A DNA stretch of 47,931 bases from an archaeon (GTDB lineage Archaea; Nanobdellota; Nanobdellia; Pacearchaeales; UBA284). The stretch lies in the NCBI GenBank assembly GCA_030612665.1, contig JAUWNL010000004.1, forward strand, positions 1-47,931, given 5' to 3'. Shown piece by piece: positions 2,559-45,468 of this stretch. Both the position numbers and the translations under genes were made by a program. The notes beneath the pieces were generated by a model. It was not told the origin of the DNA and did not search any database. It worked only from the letters and a program-made list of their open reading frames with translations. How positions within the stretch are numbered: position 1 is the first letter of the stretch; every line of letters begins with the position of its first letter.

Positions 2559-3803
2559 ATGGTCACAAAATATGATGTTTTTGAACTGGTATATAAAAAA
2601 CAGGCTCCTTTAAAAACAATTGAAGTGGTTAGAAATCTCAATAAAACCAAATCCGAATATAAAAATATCCATAGGATTTTAATGGAATTAGAAAAAAATA
2701 AGTTTTTAATTAAGAGTAAAGAAGGTTTTGAGGTAAAGAGAACAGATAAAACCAGATTATTATATAATCTAATTTATTATTGTGTACACAATAACATAAA
2801 TTATAATCTTTTGTTAGATGAAAAATTAGTGGGATTTGTTAATAAAGCTTTGAAAAAGAAAGAATTTCATCAAAAAGATATTAAAATTGATCCTAAAACT
2901 TTTAAGAAATATATTGAGATATTGAACAAATATGGCTTATTATTAATAATCTCTAGAAAACCCTTAAAAGTAAGGATATTTTATAACACCTTGATTAATA
3001 ATCTCTTAGTTTACTTTGATTTCAAATGCAGACTGATAAGAGAATTTATAATTAATTATTTAGATGAGATAGAAAAAGAGTTAATAATACATAAAAGATT
3101 GAGAAAAAAGAATGAAGCTGGCTATCAAAAAATTGTTAATGAATTTGAAATATCTTTTGTTCACCACAGTCTTGCTTTAGAAGGAAATCCTATTACATTG
3201 CCTGATACTATCAAAATCCTGAAAGACAAGATTATTCCTAGAAATCTTAAAATAGAAGATATCGATGAAGTCAAGAATTATCAAAATGCTATTCTTAAAA
3301 TGCTTAGAGATGCTCAGCAGAAAAAACCTCTTACAAAAGAGAGTATTTTAGAGTACCACAGATTAGCTATGTTGCACAGACCAAATATAGCTGGAAAAAT
3401 AAGGAAAATTCCAGTCCATATCAAGAAAAATCTTTATTTTAAAGTTGTTAAGGTATCTGAAATTAGACCAAAACTTAATCAGTTATTAGAAAGATACAGT
3501 AATTTCCTTAAAAAGAAAAAAAGCTCCATTAGAGAAATAATTAATTTTTCAGCTTACTTTCATAACGAATTCCAGCATATACATCCTTTTGAAGATGGAA
3601 ATAGTAGAATTACAAGACTTATTACTTTTCATTTACTTCACTCTAAAGGAATTCCAATGTTAGATATCCCATTTGGACTTCTAGATGAGTATCTTAGTTA
3701 TACTAAAGGTTCTAAGAAAAGAAATGATAAAAAGCTTTTTGAAAATTTACAACGGATAATTTTGTTTAATCTTAAAAAAATAAATGAGAAATTAACTTCT
3801 TAA
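2559..3803 (+). CDS. Fic-family protein with N-terminal winged-helix-like region, apparently catalytically intact
   Basis: Fic motif HIHPFEDGNSRITR; inhibitory-helix-like motif HHSLALEGN upstream. Confidence 0.92.
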   Translation: MVTKYDVFELVYKKQAPLKTIEVVRNLNKTKSEYKNIHRILMELEKNKFLIKSKEGFEVKRTDKTRLLYNLIYYCVHNNINYNLLLDEKLVGFVNKALKKKEFHQKDIKIDPKTFKKYIEILNKYGLLLIISRKPLKVRIFYNTLINNLLVYFDFKCRLIREFIINYLDEIEKELIIHKRLRKKNEAGYQKIVNEFEISFVHHSLALEGNPITLPDTIKILKDKIIPRNLKIEDIDEVKNYQNAILKMLRDAQQKKPLTKESILEYHRLAMLHRPNIAGKIRKIPVHIKKNLYFKVVKVSEIRPKLNQLLERYSNFLKKKKSSIREIINFSAYFHNEFQHIHPFEDGNSRITRLITFHLLHSKGIPMLDIPFGLLDEYLSYTKGSKKRNDKKLFENLQRIILFNLKKINEKLTS

Positions 3804-3835
3804 TATAAAATTTTCAATAGAACTCATTATTAATG

Positions 3836-3913
3836 AAAACTTCCGATAATCCCGACTGCAAGAAATATAAAAATCGGTACAATGAACAATTCAATTTTAT
3901 ATATTTTTTTCAT
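3836..3913 (-). pseudogene. Truncated copy of the 5' part of the 2129..2353 gene
   Basis: 3841-3920 aligns without gaps to 2281-2360 (10 mismatches in 80 by eye); encodes MKKIYKIELFIVPIFIFLAVGIIGSFH* versus MEKIYKIELFIVLIFLFLAGGIYGSLHYLN... Confidence 0.75.
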
Positions 3914-3942
3914 TTTTTAAATAATTTTTTTATTTTTCAAAA

Positions 3943-4356
3943 TTATTCTTCAAAAGGTATATTCGGATATCTGCAATTCCAAATGCATTCTCTCAATTCA
4001 TCAAGAATCCAAGAATGATATTCGGGATAATCCTTTTCATTGAGATAAGAAGTCATAGAACATTGGGAAATACATAAGTCCAAATGACTATGTTCGGTGT
4101 ATTCCTCTAGCCAGTCTTCAGAATTGCTTATAGCTAAATCATGATAACCTATTGTTGTCAATAACAATATACCTGCAATAACACTTACTACGAACAATGC
4201 AATTTTCCATTTTGTTGTTTTATTTTTCATCTCTTTATTCAAGAATTCTATTTTTTTAAAGTTATCTTTTATTAAGTCCAAGCAGGACATAGAACTACTG
4301 ACAGGGGTATTTTTATTCAACCAAACCAAACACTCTGGCCTCGCTTTATAGCCCAC
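3943..4356 (-). CDS. Hypothetical single-TM protein (start codon uncertain; GTG or internal ATG)
   Basis: 137-aa ORF with TM KIALFVVSVIAGILLLTTIGY. Confidence 0.5.
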   Translation of the reverse strand: MGYKARPECLVWLNKNTPVSSSMSCLDLIKDNFKKIEFLNKEMKNKTTKWKIALFVVSVIAGILLLTTIGYHDLAISNSEDWLEEYTEHSHLDLCISQCSMTSYLNEKDYPEYHSWILDELRECIWNCRYPNIPFEE

Positions 4357-4496
4357 AATATCACTAAAAAAAGAACAAATAATAAAAAATAAACAATAGA
4401 AGCACAGACATCTTTAGCAAAAAGATGCATTATTATAAAGAATAAACAAATTAGAGTGAGAAATATTGCTAAGATATTTATTAATTTTAAGATCAT
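4317..4496 (-). CDS. Small membrane protein (59 aa, below ORF-track cutoff), start overlapping the HNH stop codon (ATGA)
   Basis: Reads MILKLINILAIFLTLICLFFIIMHLFAKDVCASIVYFLLFVLFLVILWAIKRGQSVWFG*; ATGA overlap with the upstream ORF suggests translational coupling. Confidence 0.5.
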   Translation of the reverse strand: MILKLINILAIFLTLICLFFIIMHLFAKDVCASIVYFLLFVLFLVILWAIKRGQSVWFG

Positions 4497-4981
4497 TTTG
4501 TCTTTATTTTTTCATATGCTTGTCCATCTTTCCCTATAAAAATATCTCTTGTAACTCCCTTCTTTATTCTTCTTGGTTTTAATGCTTTAATACACATCTT
4601 AAAAAAAGTATCTATATCTTTTTTATCTAACAATTTTACAGCATATCTTATAAAATTAATGATGTGTTTTTTATCTTCATCATTATAGGCCTCTAAAAAA
4701 ACATTTCTAAATATTCTTTTATTTTTTAATAATTCTTCAAACCTTATTTTCCTATGAATATAGTTATGTTTTTCTTTAGTTAGAATTTGAAGATTAGAAA
4801 TTTCATTATTGACCTTAACTCCATCAATATGATGAACAACATACTTATTGAACTTCAAAGGATATCTATTTCTATTCTTTAGATAAATCTCATTAAAAGC
4901 AATTTGTCTATGGATCAAAAGAGAATGAGCTGGTGTTTCTTCAAGATATCCATTCTTATTTTTATAAGTCCTCTTAGCCAT
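4493..4981 (-). CDS. HNH endonuclease-like protein
   Basis: YVVHHIDGVKVNNEISNLQILTKEKHNYIHR matches the HNH core. Confidence 0.88.
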   Translation of the reverse strand: MAKRTYKNKNGYLEETPAHSLLIHRQIAFNEIYLKNRNRYPLKFNKYVVHHIDGVKVNNEISNLQILTKEKHNYIHRKIRFEELLKNKRIFRNVFLEAYNDEDKKHIINFIRYAVKLLDKKDIDTFFKMCIKALKPRRIKKGVTRDIFIGKDGQAYEKIKTK

Positions 4982-5071
4982 ATCTCTATTGAGAAATCTC
5001 TTTTTTTAAAGGTTTTTGTTTATAAATTTTGTACTGAAAGAGATGTTTTTTGTTTGGTGCTCCCGAGATTA

Positions 5072-5371
5072 TTAGATCAGACGAGTGATTAAATAAAATA
5101 CTACAATAAGGATTATGTAGAAATTAATCTTCTTTTGAATATTTTTCTTATCTATTTCATTTTTATTTTTTGAATTGATTATACTAGCAATACAAAGTCC
5201 AACAAACGAACCTCCAAATAAACCATAATTTGCCCAAAAAAGAAGTCCCCACCAAGAGCCATAAAGTAAAAATCCAATTATCCCTGCTATAAGTATTCCA
5301 GAAATTGCTCCCCCTATTAAGGCAGTTTCTGCAGGATATTTGGAAAGAAAAGATTCAACAGTTTTTTCCAT
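5072..5371 (-). CDS. Small membrane protein
   Basis: 99-aa ORF with several hydrophobic, glycine-rich helices. Confidence 0.6.
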   Translation of the reverse strand: MEKTVESFLSKYPAETALIGGAISGILIAGIIGFLLYGSWWGLLFWANYGLFGGSFVGLCIASIINSKNKNEIDKKNIQKKINFYIILIVVFYLITRLI

Positions 5372-5532
5372 GTTCTATAGAAAGCAAAGCACTATAAAAA
5401 TATTTTGTACTGAAATAGGGGTTTTATCAGGGTTTTGACGATTTTATTTAAATCCTCAAAAAACTTTAATTAGATATCCGTTATCCGTGTAACACCGAAA
5501 GATTTAAATACATCTAACGTCTATATTTTAAC

Positions 5533-6093
5533 ATGCAAATAGAAAGATTAGATGAAAAAGTAAAAGAAGCCAAAGAAGCAGTTAAAGATTTAGAAGAGCC
5601 CTTAAAGACAGAAGCTTTTAAAAAGATTTTAGATAAGCTTCTTGAAAGTCCTGCACAGGTTCAAAGGCCCAAAGCTTCACAACCCCTCGATAAAAGAAAA
5701 AAGAAAAAAAGAAGTACCAGTGGAAATCTTGGAAAAGCAGGAGTAAAAGCAAAAGAAAAATCAGAGAAAAAGAAAAGAGAACTTGCAACCAAGTTAAATA
5801 GAAGTCATTATCCAGATATTTACGATCTAAAGAAGATTCTTCCACAAGCGTTATATGTGCTTAATATTATGAAGAAAAAAGAGATCGGGGGTCTAACGCC
5901 ACCAGAGATTCGGTTTATATTGAAAGAAGTGTTTGGAATTAATCACAGTCCAGAATCAATAAGTGTATCTTTAAACAGAAGAGAAGCTAAAAAGTATACT
6001 GCTAGAAAGAGAATTGTTATTGGTAGAACTGTGGCGTATGTATATGAAATAATGAAGGCTGGAGAAGATTACTTAGATAAGATCAAGCAATAA
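5533..6093 (+). CDS. Hypothetical lysine-rich protein with possible C-terminal helix-turn-helix region
   Basis: 186-aa ORF preceded by BRE/TATA ACCGAAAGATTTAAATA (5495-5511). Confidence 0.65.
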   Translation: MQIERLDEKVKEAKEAVKDLEEPLKTEAFKKILDKLLESPAQVQRPKASQPLDKRKKKKRSTSGNLGKAGVKAKEKSEKKKRELATKLNRSHYPDIYDLKKILPQALYVLNIMKKKEIGGLTPPEIRFILKEVFGINHSPESISVSLNRREAKKYTARKRIVIGRTVAYVYEIMKAGEDYLDKIKQ

Positions 6094-6159
6094 TAATCAT
6101 GAAGATAAAACAGATGATGGAGAAGAACCAGACTTGTCTTGATGTTTTAGAACGTGGTC

Positions 6160-6216
6160 GTGAGGTGGTCGCCGTGCAGGTAGATTTACAGGCTCCACAC
6201 CTGAAATTTCCACCTC
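6160..6216. ncRNA. Candidate structured RNA (GC-rich nested hairpin; strand and class unresolved)
   Basis: TGAGGTGG (6160-6167) pairs with CCACCTCA (6209-6216); inner CAGGT (6176-6180) pairs with ACCTG (6198-6202); GC-rich island in AT-rich intergenic DNA. Confidence 0.45.
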
Positions 6217-6398
6217 ATGTAAAACACAATTAATATTACCTTAATCATAAATTAAACATATTTATAAAATTAACCTTTTTGTGGACAATTTTCGGACAGA
6301 GTATATCTTTTCTTGGACATTAAGAAATTATTCGGACTTAGTTACAAAAAGAAAAAACTATAAAAATTTTTCCATTATGAGATGGGTTCAAAGATCAA

Positions 6399-6521
6399 TT
6401 ACTTCTCGTCGTCTTTTTGATTTAGAAATTCCCAGAACTTGGTTAAATCTGGAAATTCTTTTCTAAAAAAATCTGGAATTGTGTCTTCCTCTTTTTCTTG
6501 CTCTTTTTTTGGATTTTCCAT
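6399..6521 (-). CDS. Candidate small acidic protein (40 aa)
   Basis: MENPKKEQEKEEDTIPDFFRKEFPDLTKFWEFLNQKDDEK*; TATA-like TTTAAAA at 6544-6550, about 25 nt upstream of the ATG, suggests a leaderless mRNA. Confidence 0.4.
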   Translation of the reverse strand: MENPKKEQEKEEDTIPDFFRKEFPDLTKFWEFLNQKDDEK

Positions 6522-6569
6522 CCAACGGGTTCAAAAACACCCTTTTTAAATGTTGTACTGAAAGAAAGG

Positions 6570-6642
6570 CGCCCCAGCCGAGATTCGAACTCGGATCGGA
6601 GCCTCGACAGGGCTCAATGCTAAACCATTACACTACTAGGGC
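6570..6642 (-). tRNA. tRNA-Asp (GTC)
   Basis: GCCCTAG...GAGCC-CTGTCGA-GGCTC...CTGGGGC-G cloverleaf. Confidence 0.95.
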
Positions 6643-13481: not shown

Positions 13482-14921
13482 TTAAATATATTTTTTAATT
13501 ATCTTTGAGACTTTAACAGCATCAATCTTTCCTTTATATTTTTTCATAATGAGCCCCATGTAAGCATTAATGCTGAGAGCTGGCTTGTTTTTAATAAGCT
13601 TTTTGATTTCATCATCAAGCTTTGAAACATCAGTTACTTCCTCTTTTGTGACTTCTTTGATAGTTTTTCCTCTGGCTAGGCCTTCTATTGCCTTCTTTAC
13701 TCTTGACTCTTCAAGTTTTCCCTTACTTAGATAATCACAAATTGTTTCAAGAACATCGAGAGATAATTTTTCATAAACTTTATCAATTTCAATTTTTTCA
13801 TGACTTGCAATTTCTTTTGGCCAGATTGCAAGCATCTTAGCAATGAAACCAGGTTTGTTGTAGATGTTTATGAGAATTTTATATTCATCAAGCTTGTTTT
13901 CTTTAAGCAATGCTTGTGCAAGCTCACTATGCATTTTTTCTTCAAGCTCAGCTTTAATTTCATGTTTAAGTCTTGGAAGAGTCTTTTTTATATTATCAAT
14001 CATGTCTTTTGAAATCTTGATTAGGGGGATATCTGTTTCAGGATACATACGCGCAGCTCCTGGCAATGGCCTCAAGAAAGTTGTTGTGCCATCAATCTCA
14101 GCGCGTCTGACTTCAGGCAATGCCTTTTTCTTTTTTTCTTTTTTTAATTCTAGTTGCCGTATGATTTCAGTTTCAATAGTTTTTGAGATAAGGGTAGGAT
14201 CTTGAACTCCCTTAATCTCTATTCTAGGACCATCTTTAATTGACATGTTAACATCCTGCCTGATTGTTCCAAGGCCTCGCTTAACTTTACAGCTTCGAAG
14301 AATTTCCCCAATCTTTAAGGCTACTTGCTTTGCTTCTTCTGGACTTGATATATCTGGACTTGTTGCTATTTCAACAAGTGGAATTCCAAGCCTATCAAGA
14401 CGAAATATTTTTTGATGTTCTGTTTGTTTGATTATTCTTGCTGCATCCTCCTCAAGACAGATATTTTGGATTCCTATTTTTTTCCCAGAATCTGTTTCTA
14501 TATAGCCGTCTGTTGCAAGAAGTAAAGTTCTTTGAAATCCTGAGGTGTTTGAGCCATCAACAACAGTTTTGCGCATGACCTGGGTTGTTGTGATGGGGGT
14601 TGCATTGAGAAGTAAGGAAATTTGTAAGGCAATTCTGAGTGCTTCTTGGTTAATAAGATGTGGAGGTTCTTCATCCAATTCAACAAGACAAGTTGAATCA
14701 GAATAAGCTTGATAAACAAATTCTTTTTTCTTTGATTGTTCATAAGCTGCAGCAACGTCTATTTTTCCAGTTTCACCAGCAAGAGCATAAAGTCTTCTTC
14801 TGACTTCAATATCTGGATTTTCTTTTCTCAAGATGCTTGGACATTTACAGAAAAGCTTGTGGGTCTCAAGCTGTTGATGAATTTCAATTCCTGACTTAAG
14901 ACCTATCTTTTTATAATCCAT
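13482..14921 (-). CDS. gatE: Glutamyl-tRNA(Gln) amidotransferase subunit E-like protein lacking the GAD insertion domain
   Basis: IEIHQQLETHKLFCKCPSILRKENPDIEVRRRLYALAGETGKIDVAAAYEQ and CLVELDEEPPH are GatE-like; QLELKKEKKKKALPEVRRAEIDGTTTFLRPLPGAARMYPETDIP runs on without the usual insertion. Confidence 0.9.
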   Translation of the reverse strand: MDYKKIGLKSGIEIHQQLETHKLFCKCPSILRKENPDIEVRRRLYALAGETGKIDVAAAYEQSKKKEFVYQAYSDSTCLVELDEEPPHLINQEALRIALQISLLLNATPITTTQVMRKTVVDGSNTSGFQRTLLLATDGYIETDSGKKIGIQNICLEEDAARIIKQTEHQKIFRLDRLGIPLVEIATSPDISSPEEAKQVALKIGEILRSCKVKRGLGTIRQDVNMSIKDGPRIEIKGVQDPTLISKTIETEIIRQLELKKEKKKKALPEVRRAEIDGTTTFLRPLPGAARMYPETDIPLIKISKDMIDNIKKTLPRLKHEIKAELEEKMHSELAQALLKENKLDEYKILINIYNKPGFIAKMLAIWPKEIASHEKIEIDKVYEKLSLDVLETICDYLSKGKLEESRVKKAIEGLARGKTIKEVTKEEVTDVSKLDDEIKKLIKNKPALSINAYMGLIMKKYKGKIDAVKVSKIIKKYI

Positions 14922-26016: not shown

Positions 26017-26027
26017 GCAACATGATT

Positions 26028-26070
26028 TGTAGTGAATAACCGAAAGGTTTAAATAAGTGTAGTGAATAAC
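26028..26070 (+). promoter_or_regulatory. Direct repeats TGTAGTGAATAAC (26028-26040, 26058-26070) flanking BRE/TATA CGAAAGGTTTAAATA
   Basis: Two identical 13-mers exactly 30 bp apart around the core promoter of the degenerate Fic gene. Confidence 0.65.
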
Positions 26071-26985
26071 TTTAATATGGTATTTGTAAGGCAAGTAAAA
26101 AGCAAGAAAAAGGAATATTGGGTGCTTATTCATTCAATTAGAAAAGGAAAAAAGATAATTCAAAAAAGCAGATATATTGGCAAAACTCTCCCCAAGAAAG
26201 CAAGATTAGAACAATTAAAAAAAGAATTTTTAAGAGAATTAAGTGTTGGAAGATATAAATTTCTTTCAGTAGAAGACATTAAAAAAATAGAGAAGAAAAA
26301 ATCAGAATATAAAAAAAAGGTAGAAAGATTAAGCCCCTTGGAAAAAGAAGGAAGATTAAAGGAATTTTCTATAAGATATACTTATGATAGTAGCAAATTA
26401 TCTGGTTTAGATGTGACGTTGAGGCAGACTTTTTTAATATTAAAAAAAGGAGTTATGCCAAAAGGATTTAAGAGCTTAAGAACAGTAAAAGAACTCGAAA
26501 ATCATGAAAAGGGGATAATTGCAATAACAAAATATAAGGGAAAATTAGATTTAAAATTTATTAAAAAAATACATAAAATTTTATTCTCTGGGGTTGATGA
26601 TGCCTTGGCAGGAAAATTGAGAAGTGAATTAAAAAAAGATATTAAAATAGCTGGAACAGTCTATGTTCCTCCAAAATGGAATCAGCTCAATAAAGAAATC
26701 GAGAATTTCTTCAGATGGTATAAGGCAGAAAAAAGAAAATTACATACTTTGGAATTGGCTGCATTGATACATTTAAAAATAATCTCCTTACAGCTATTTA
26801 CAGACGGCAATTCAAGACTTTCAAGATTATTAATGAACTGGATTCTATGGAAAAAAGGATATCCGCTCATTGATATTCCAATTAAAGATTTAGAAAATTA
26901 TTATGATGTTCTAGATAAATATCAAATAGAAAAAAAAGAAAGACCCTTTCTTAACTATATTAAAAAAACATACTTAAAAGAATAA
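26062..26985 (+). CDS. Fic-fold protein with degenerate active site; true start probably ATG at 26077
   Basis: SLQLFTDGNSRLSR aligns to the Fic motif of 2559..3803 (HIHPFEDGNSRITR) with His replaced by Gln. Confidence 0.85.
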   Translation: MNNFNMVFVRQVKSKKKEYWVLIHSIRKGKKIIQKSRYIGKTLPKKARLEQLKKEFLRELSVGRYKFLSVEDIKKIEKKKSEYKKKVERLSPLEKEGRLKEFSIRYTYDSSKLSGLDVTLRQTFLILKKGVMPKGFKSLRTVKELENHEKGIIAITKYKGKLDLKFIKKIHKILFSGVDDALAGKLRSELKKDIKIAGTVYVPPKWNQLNKEIENFFRWYKAEKRKLHTLELAALIHLKIISLQLFTDGNSRLSRLLMNWILWKKGYPLIDIPIKDLENYYDVLDKYQIEKKERPFLNYIKKTYLKE

Positions 26986-44949: not shown

Positions 44950-45468
44950 TTATTCTCTGACCATCAAGGTTTTGCATTTCTTACACTTCATTTCAGTACA
45001 AGGTTTTCCTATGACTTTTTTTTCTTTATAGCCACAATTAGGACATATGCAATATCCTCCAGGACCTACACCTAATCCTAAACCAGGACCAAGACCAGGA
45101 CCAGGACCAAATCCTCTTCCTTGTCCTCGGCCAAAACCTCTGCCTCTTCCTAAACCTCTTGGCGCAACACGTGGTTCTACCATTTCATAACTTCCTCCTT
45201 CAATTTTAATTATTTTATTATTAACAAGAGCATCTGCAATCTTCTTTCTTGCTGATAAGATTAATCTATGAAAAGTAGGCTGAGAAACTTCCATCTCTTC
45301 TGCTGCTTTTTGCTGATCAAGTCCTTGGAAATCCTTCAAACGAATAGCTTCTAATTCACTATAAGTCAAAGAAGTTTCTTCGAGATTAATAATTCCAGGA
45401 CCGGTTGGTGTAAGATGAGTAAATCTACACTTCCATCTTATTCTTCTTCTTAATCTAGGTCTAGGCAT
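44950..45468 (-). CDS. DUF134 family HTH protein with Gly-rich region and C-terminal zinc ribbon
   Basis: MPRPRLRRRIRWKCRFTHLTPTG...LTYSELEAIRLKDFQGLDQQKAAEEMEVSQPTFHRLILSARKKIADALV; CPNCGYKEKKVIGKPCTEMKCKKC. Confidence 0.93.
   Translation of the reverse strand: MPRPRLRRRIRWKCRFTHLTPTGPGIINLEETSLTYSELEAIRLKDFQGLDQQKAAEEMEVSQPTFHRLILSARKKIADALVNNKIIKIEGGSYEMVEPRVAPRGLGRGRGFGRGQGRGFGPGPGLGPGLGLGVGPGGYCICPNCGYKEKKVIGKPCTEMKCKKCKTLMVRE

Follow-up and report, generated by a model that had tools for sequence, protein, structure and literature searches.

An exact 11-bp element at three neighbouring promoters of a small archaeal genome, possibly a locus-private operator

Background

The locus described here raises the question of whether three neighbouring minus-strand transcription units share a regulatory site of their own, or whether what they share is a general variant of the archaeal BRE. 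The first-pass annotation of the window (the whole stretch of 47,931 nucleotides that was analysed) had proposed a common element in the BRE position ahead of an HNH nuclease gene, a membrane protein gene and a small acidic ORF, and had read the three as a local regulon that would suit a small defence or stress module.

The host, an archaeon with AT-rich DNA (30% GC), has a 668-kb genome assembly in 41 contigs that is 83.6% complete and includes an archaeal RNase P RNA recognised by Rfam. In this genome promoters most often, by a wide margin, have a TATA box that begins 29 bp ahead of the start codon, so most recognisable host promoters look leaderless. Promoters were scored with a matrix trained on 110 promoters of the same genome, and 237 host promoters with leaderless geometry made up the set for promoter-level tests.

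Distribution of the element

The 11-mer TTTCAGTACAA is present as an exact match on the minus strand at 5029..5039, ahead of the HNH gene (copy 1), at 5405..5415, ahead of the gene for a 99-aa membrane protein (copy 2), and at 6553..6563, ahead of a 40-aa ORF (copy 3). Copy 3 begins 4 nt past the 3' end of a tRNA-Asp(GTC) gene (6568..6642, minus strand; ARAGORN and Rfam). The proposal of a shared element at three nearby promoters was thus borne out at all three; the longer strings first reported there are correct in sequence, their coordinates being 1-2 bases off. A fourth exact copy in the window (44991-45001, plus strand) lies within a coding ORF (44950-45468, minus strand), and a fifth, the last in the 668-kb genome (C27:11157), lies within a 569-codon ORF, so that both copies outside the locus are inside ORFs.

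A genome-wide screen for 11-mers present three times within 2 kb, which is independent of the fact that TTTCAGTACAA was picked after inspection, returned it as the only triplet word at separate promoters under a strict complexity filter (1.8 bits), a setting at which order-3 Markov shuffled genomes gave 0.04 triplets of any kind per genome. A laxer filter gave 18 triplet words versus about 0.8 per shuffled genome, and those with mainly non-coding copies fell in three places: the HNH locus, an array on contig C22 and a promoter repeat on contig C41. The C22 array (14810-14918) is non-coding, its repeat words (TGTAATACCTA) recurring at intervals of about 32 nt. On C41, AGCGAGCCCATTAGGGCGAGCGATA, a potential GCCC..GGGC hairpin, occurs three times within 1.3 kb (56822, 57822 and 58094, plus strand), its first two copies sharing about 50 nt that extend into the TATA box. 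Another repeat, within the window at 26027-26067, belongs to the promoter of a Fic-domain gene (26062-26985), where TAGTGAATAAC stands twice, flanking the TATA box (minus strand GTTATTCACTA).

At the promoter level, TTTCAGTACAA is found at exactly three of the 237 leaderless-type promoters, all in one locus, while letter-permuted words reached a mean of 0.01 on the same promoters and none of 100 reached three. The three promoter-linked copies are non-random. The genome-wide motif scan thus confines the promoter copies to this locus, and the promoter form did not occur in any of 278 further genomes from the phylum; a word common at housekeeping promoters, as expected of a general BRE variant, is not what was found, and the element stands as a shared, locus-specific, promoter-linked feature distinct from such a variant. 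Allowing two mismatches added five further promoters, for eight in all against a mean of 1.7 and a maximum of 5 for permuted words, a weak excess. The genes behind the 2-mismatch promoters, judged by eye, include a tRNA synthetase, PCNA, an RNA polymerase subunit and an HTH protein, and this mixed, partly housekeeping set was rejected as a wider regulon. Among 2.9 million viral contigs, TTTCAGTACAA followed by a TATA box was seen in 13 stretches, one match each, which we took as chance, and the string matched only unrelated papers in the literature.

Promoter geometry and flanking sequence

The three promoters differ in how the element is placed. At the 99-aa gene, a weak TATA-like box, TTTTTATA, lies at -29 (5393..5400, minus strand; 4.4 bits), and at the 40-aa ORF the box TTTAAAAA lies at -29 (6543..6550, minus strand; 8.7 bits); in both cases the TATA box directly follows TTTCAGTACAA, which overlaps its BRE. 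The HNH gene has its best-scoring TATA box, also TTTAAAAA, at -29 (5003..5010, minus strand; 14.2 bits), 29 bp downstream of the element, and a second TATA-like box, TTTATAAA, at -45 (5019..5026, minus strand; 9.5 bits) that directly follows copy 1 and would imply a leader of about 16 nt. The claim that the element occupies the BRE position at each promoter therefore holds for the 99-aa and 40-aa genes and is ambiguous at best for the HNH gene, where the better TATA box is elsewhere (14.2 versus 9.5 bits). Overall, the spacing from element to best TATA box varies among 13, 15 and 29 bp.

Like a BRE bound by TFB, TTTCAGTACAA places its A-rich part (ACAA) directly upstream of the TATA box at two genes; unlike a BRE, it is 11 bp long, is absent from other host promoters and carries two disfavoured letters. 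The host consensus usually has A at -7 and -5; the element has T (8% of the training set) at the first of these positions and C (8%) at the second, a mismatch that applies to the 40-aa promoter and to the HNH box linked to the element. Given these off-consensus positions, TFB preference alone does not explain the element.

Identity beyond the 11-mer has different borders in each pair. Copies 1 and 2 agree at 21/24 nt, including an upstream AAAAC, and copies 1 and 3 at 21/23 nt, including the TATA region, so that similarity extends upstream in one pair and downstream in the other while the 11-mer is invariant throughout. Two of the three pairwise comparisons of upstream flanks are near random (4-5 of 20 nt identical versus about 5.8 expected), and the flanks of copies 1 and 2 are above chance (10/20). 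Copy 3 adjoins the tRNA-Asp gene and has no other shared flank. That the 11-mer stays invariant while most of its flanks are unrelated speaks for a shared site with a function.

Genes of the locus

The HNH-domain protein (162 aa; 4493..4981, minus strand) has a Pfam HNH_3 match (1.5e-7) and a coding score of 0.69, and its gene is followed on the same strand by membrane-type ORFs of 59 aa (4317-4496) and 137 aa (3943-4356). The 99-aa membrane protein (5072..5371, minus strand) has a coding score of 0.51, and the 40-aa acidic ORF (6399..6521, minus strand) scores 0.64, higher than 99% of spurious ORFs of about its length. All three of these ORFs look coding.

Many genes of the locus are orphans. 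Matches to the HNH protein were partial and weak and came from four of 38 other genomes; no relatives of the 99-aa protein were found among 54 other genomes of the order, and the 40-aa protein gave chance-level matches and no convincing homologue across 280 other genomes, its best-looking candidate being discounted for an unconvincing reading frame. A viral collection held no relatives of the HNH, 99-aa or winged-helix proteins. An orthologous locus was sought in relatives and not found, the flanking methyltransferase giving distant matches only; one locus that came up in the search was unrelated.

The suggested defence or stress module is unsupported, no gene that carries the element having a family-level match to a defence system. 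The HNH protein resembles the Zorya type II HNH nuclease ZorE in an HNH core of about 28 residues; unlike ZorE, it scores 17.6 bits where the cut-off is 600, the rest of the protein being unrelated, and the 99-aa and 40-aa proteins had no convincing match to any family, PADLOC families included. A different Fic-domain gene, near the locus (2559-3803, plus strand) matches PADLOC PDC-S04 (1.1e-26) and SoFic (1.8e-21); it lies on the strand opposite the element genes and has its own strong promoter without TTTCAGTACAA. It is flanked by 91-nt direct repeats (2271-2361 and 3831-3921; 86% identical) in which a small membrane protein begins (MEKIYKIELF...), truncated in the second copy, as if the Fic gene had been inserted or the segment duplicated.

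Between copies 2 and 3 is the gene for a 186-aa protein (5533..6093, plus strand) in which AlphaFold2 predicts a winged helix at residues 100-186 (pLDDT ~90). Its predicted fold is like that of PadR/MarR-type regulators, the nearest folds returned by Foldseek; unlike them it has no sequence family match, and the best Foldseek E value is only 0.012. Its strong promoter is its own and lacks TTTCAGTACAA. Homologues were found in three of 108 other genomes of the order, and their neighbourhoods showed no comparable repeated word; in one (L096, 498-1364) the homologue is directly downstream of a REase_II-like gene with an HTH/excisionase-type N-terminus. The non-coding region between the winged-helix gene and the 40-aa ORF (6110-6235) has a stable predicted fold (about -30 kcal/mol on either strand) with no Rfam match, and is possibly a small RNA.

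Alternative explanations

Local copying of promoter DNA could also account for the three promoters: a segment of 23-30 bp may have spread to neighbouring genes by short duplication or gene conversion, the word then being common to the three through recent descent, with no dedicated regulator. We consider this explanation, the main rival, possible but doubtful. It would account for the identity beyond the 11-mer that copy 1 shares with copies 2 and 3, as noted above, and other repeats lend it plausibility, namely the local promoter repeat on C41, where two promoters 1 kb apart have about 50 nt in common and a third copy is partial, and the 91-nt direct repeat around the nearby Fic gene. Weighing against copying are the pairwise borders, which differ while the 11-mer does not, and the position of copy 3 against tRNA-Asp without any other shared flank.

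A small promoter class read by an alternative TFB would also predict the overlap of TTTCAGTACAA with the BRE seen at two promoters of the three, and TFB paralogues can confer promoter specificity in archaea (PMC7289017). We found a single TFB gene in the genome, with both TFIIB domains within one 335-aa frame, although at 83.6% completeness a second could be missing, and the HNH promoter does not fit; a dedicated TFB is accordingly very improbable. Much the same low probability attaches to a functionless chance word arising from an A-rich BRE and T-rich upstream composition, which would agree with the lack of any excess of approximate matches (up to two mismatches) across the window (32 observed versus 36.7 expected) but is disfavoured by the exact-match and promoter-level tests. 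The closeness of copy 3 to the tRNA-Asp 3' end, in an orphan-rich locus, recalls the attachment-type or recombination repeat of a mobile element, of which the copies would be remnants; yet the window has no repeat of the tRNA 3' end of 10 nt or longer, no integrase was seen among the ORFs and the copies sit at promoters, all of which makes such an origin highly unlikely.

A possible operator

We give about even odds to TTTCAGTACAA being a locus-private cis operator that co-regulates three minus-strand transcription units, the 40-aa ORF, the 99-aa membrane protein gene and the HNH operon. Supporting this reading are the exact word at three promoters where permuted words average 0.01, the excess of triplets, the absence from the phylum genomes, the off-consensus BRE, the invariance of the word in near-random flanks, the coding-like ORFs and the DNA-binding-type protein encoded between copies 2 and 3. 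Against it are the non-palindromic word, its variable spacing from the TATA box, a winged-helix promoter that lacks it, homologues without repeated words, the failure to find an orthologous locus and the above-chance upstream flank of copies 1 and 2, which duplication would also give.

Co-regulation, protein binding and the direction of any effect we infer from sequence. A sequence-specific DNA-binding protein would most likely bind TTTCAGTACAA; at the 40-aa and 99-aa genes it might repress, in competition with TFB/TBP for the BRE and TATA box, or might help their recruitment, and at the HNH gene it could act on the upstream TATA box or from a point 29 bp ahead of the one at -29. Such a site would be like the archaeal operators that overlap the BRE and TATA box, as the SurR site overlaps the TATA box in Thermococcus kodakarensis (PMC4247193), in that two of the three genes have a short word overlapping their core promoter; unlike SurR-type operators, it is limited to one 1.5-kb locus and lies further upstream at the HNH gene.

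The nearest candidate for the regulator is the protein with the winged helix (5533-6093); we assign it this role only tentatively and with considerable doubt, its link to the element being one of position only. Most dimeric winged-helix regulators bind palindromic sites, and TTTCAGTACAA is not palindromic. One further reading, which we hold very improbable, is a regulon confined to this lineage and to a single locus: an undescribed winged-helix repressor would keep the HNH nuclease, the membrane protein and the small acidic protein silent by binding a non-palindromic operator that overlaps the BRE, much as toxic or antiviral modules are held under control.

Operators that overlap archaeal core promoters are already known, so the general picture of archaeal regulation is unchanged by this element. 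Very little is known, however, of gene-specific regulation in archaea with genomes as tiny as this one, and the element, if real, would be an operator that can be tested, its targets a compact group of three and its candidate regulator close at hand.
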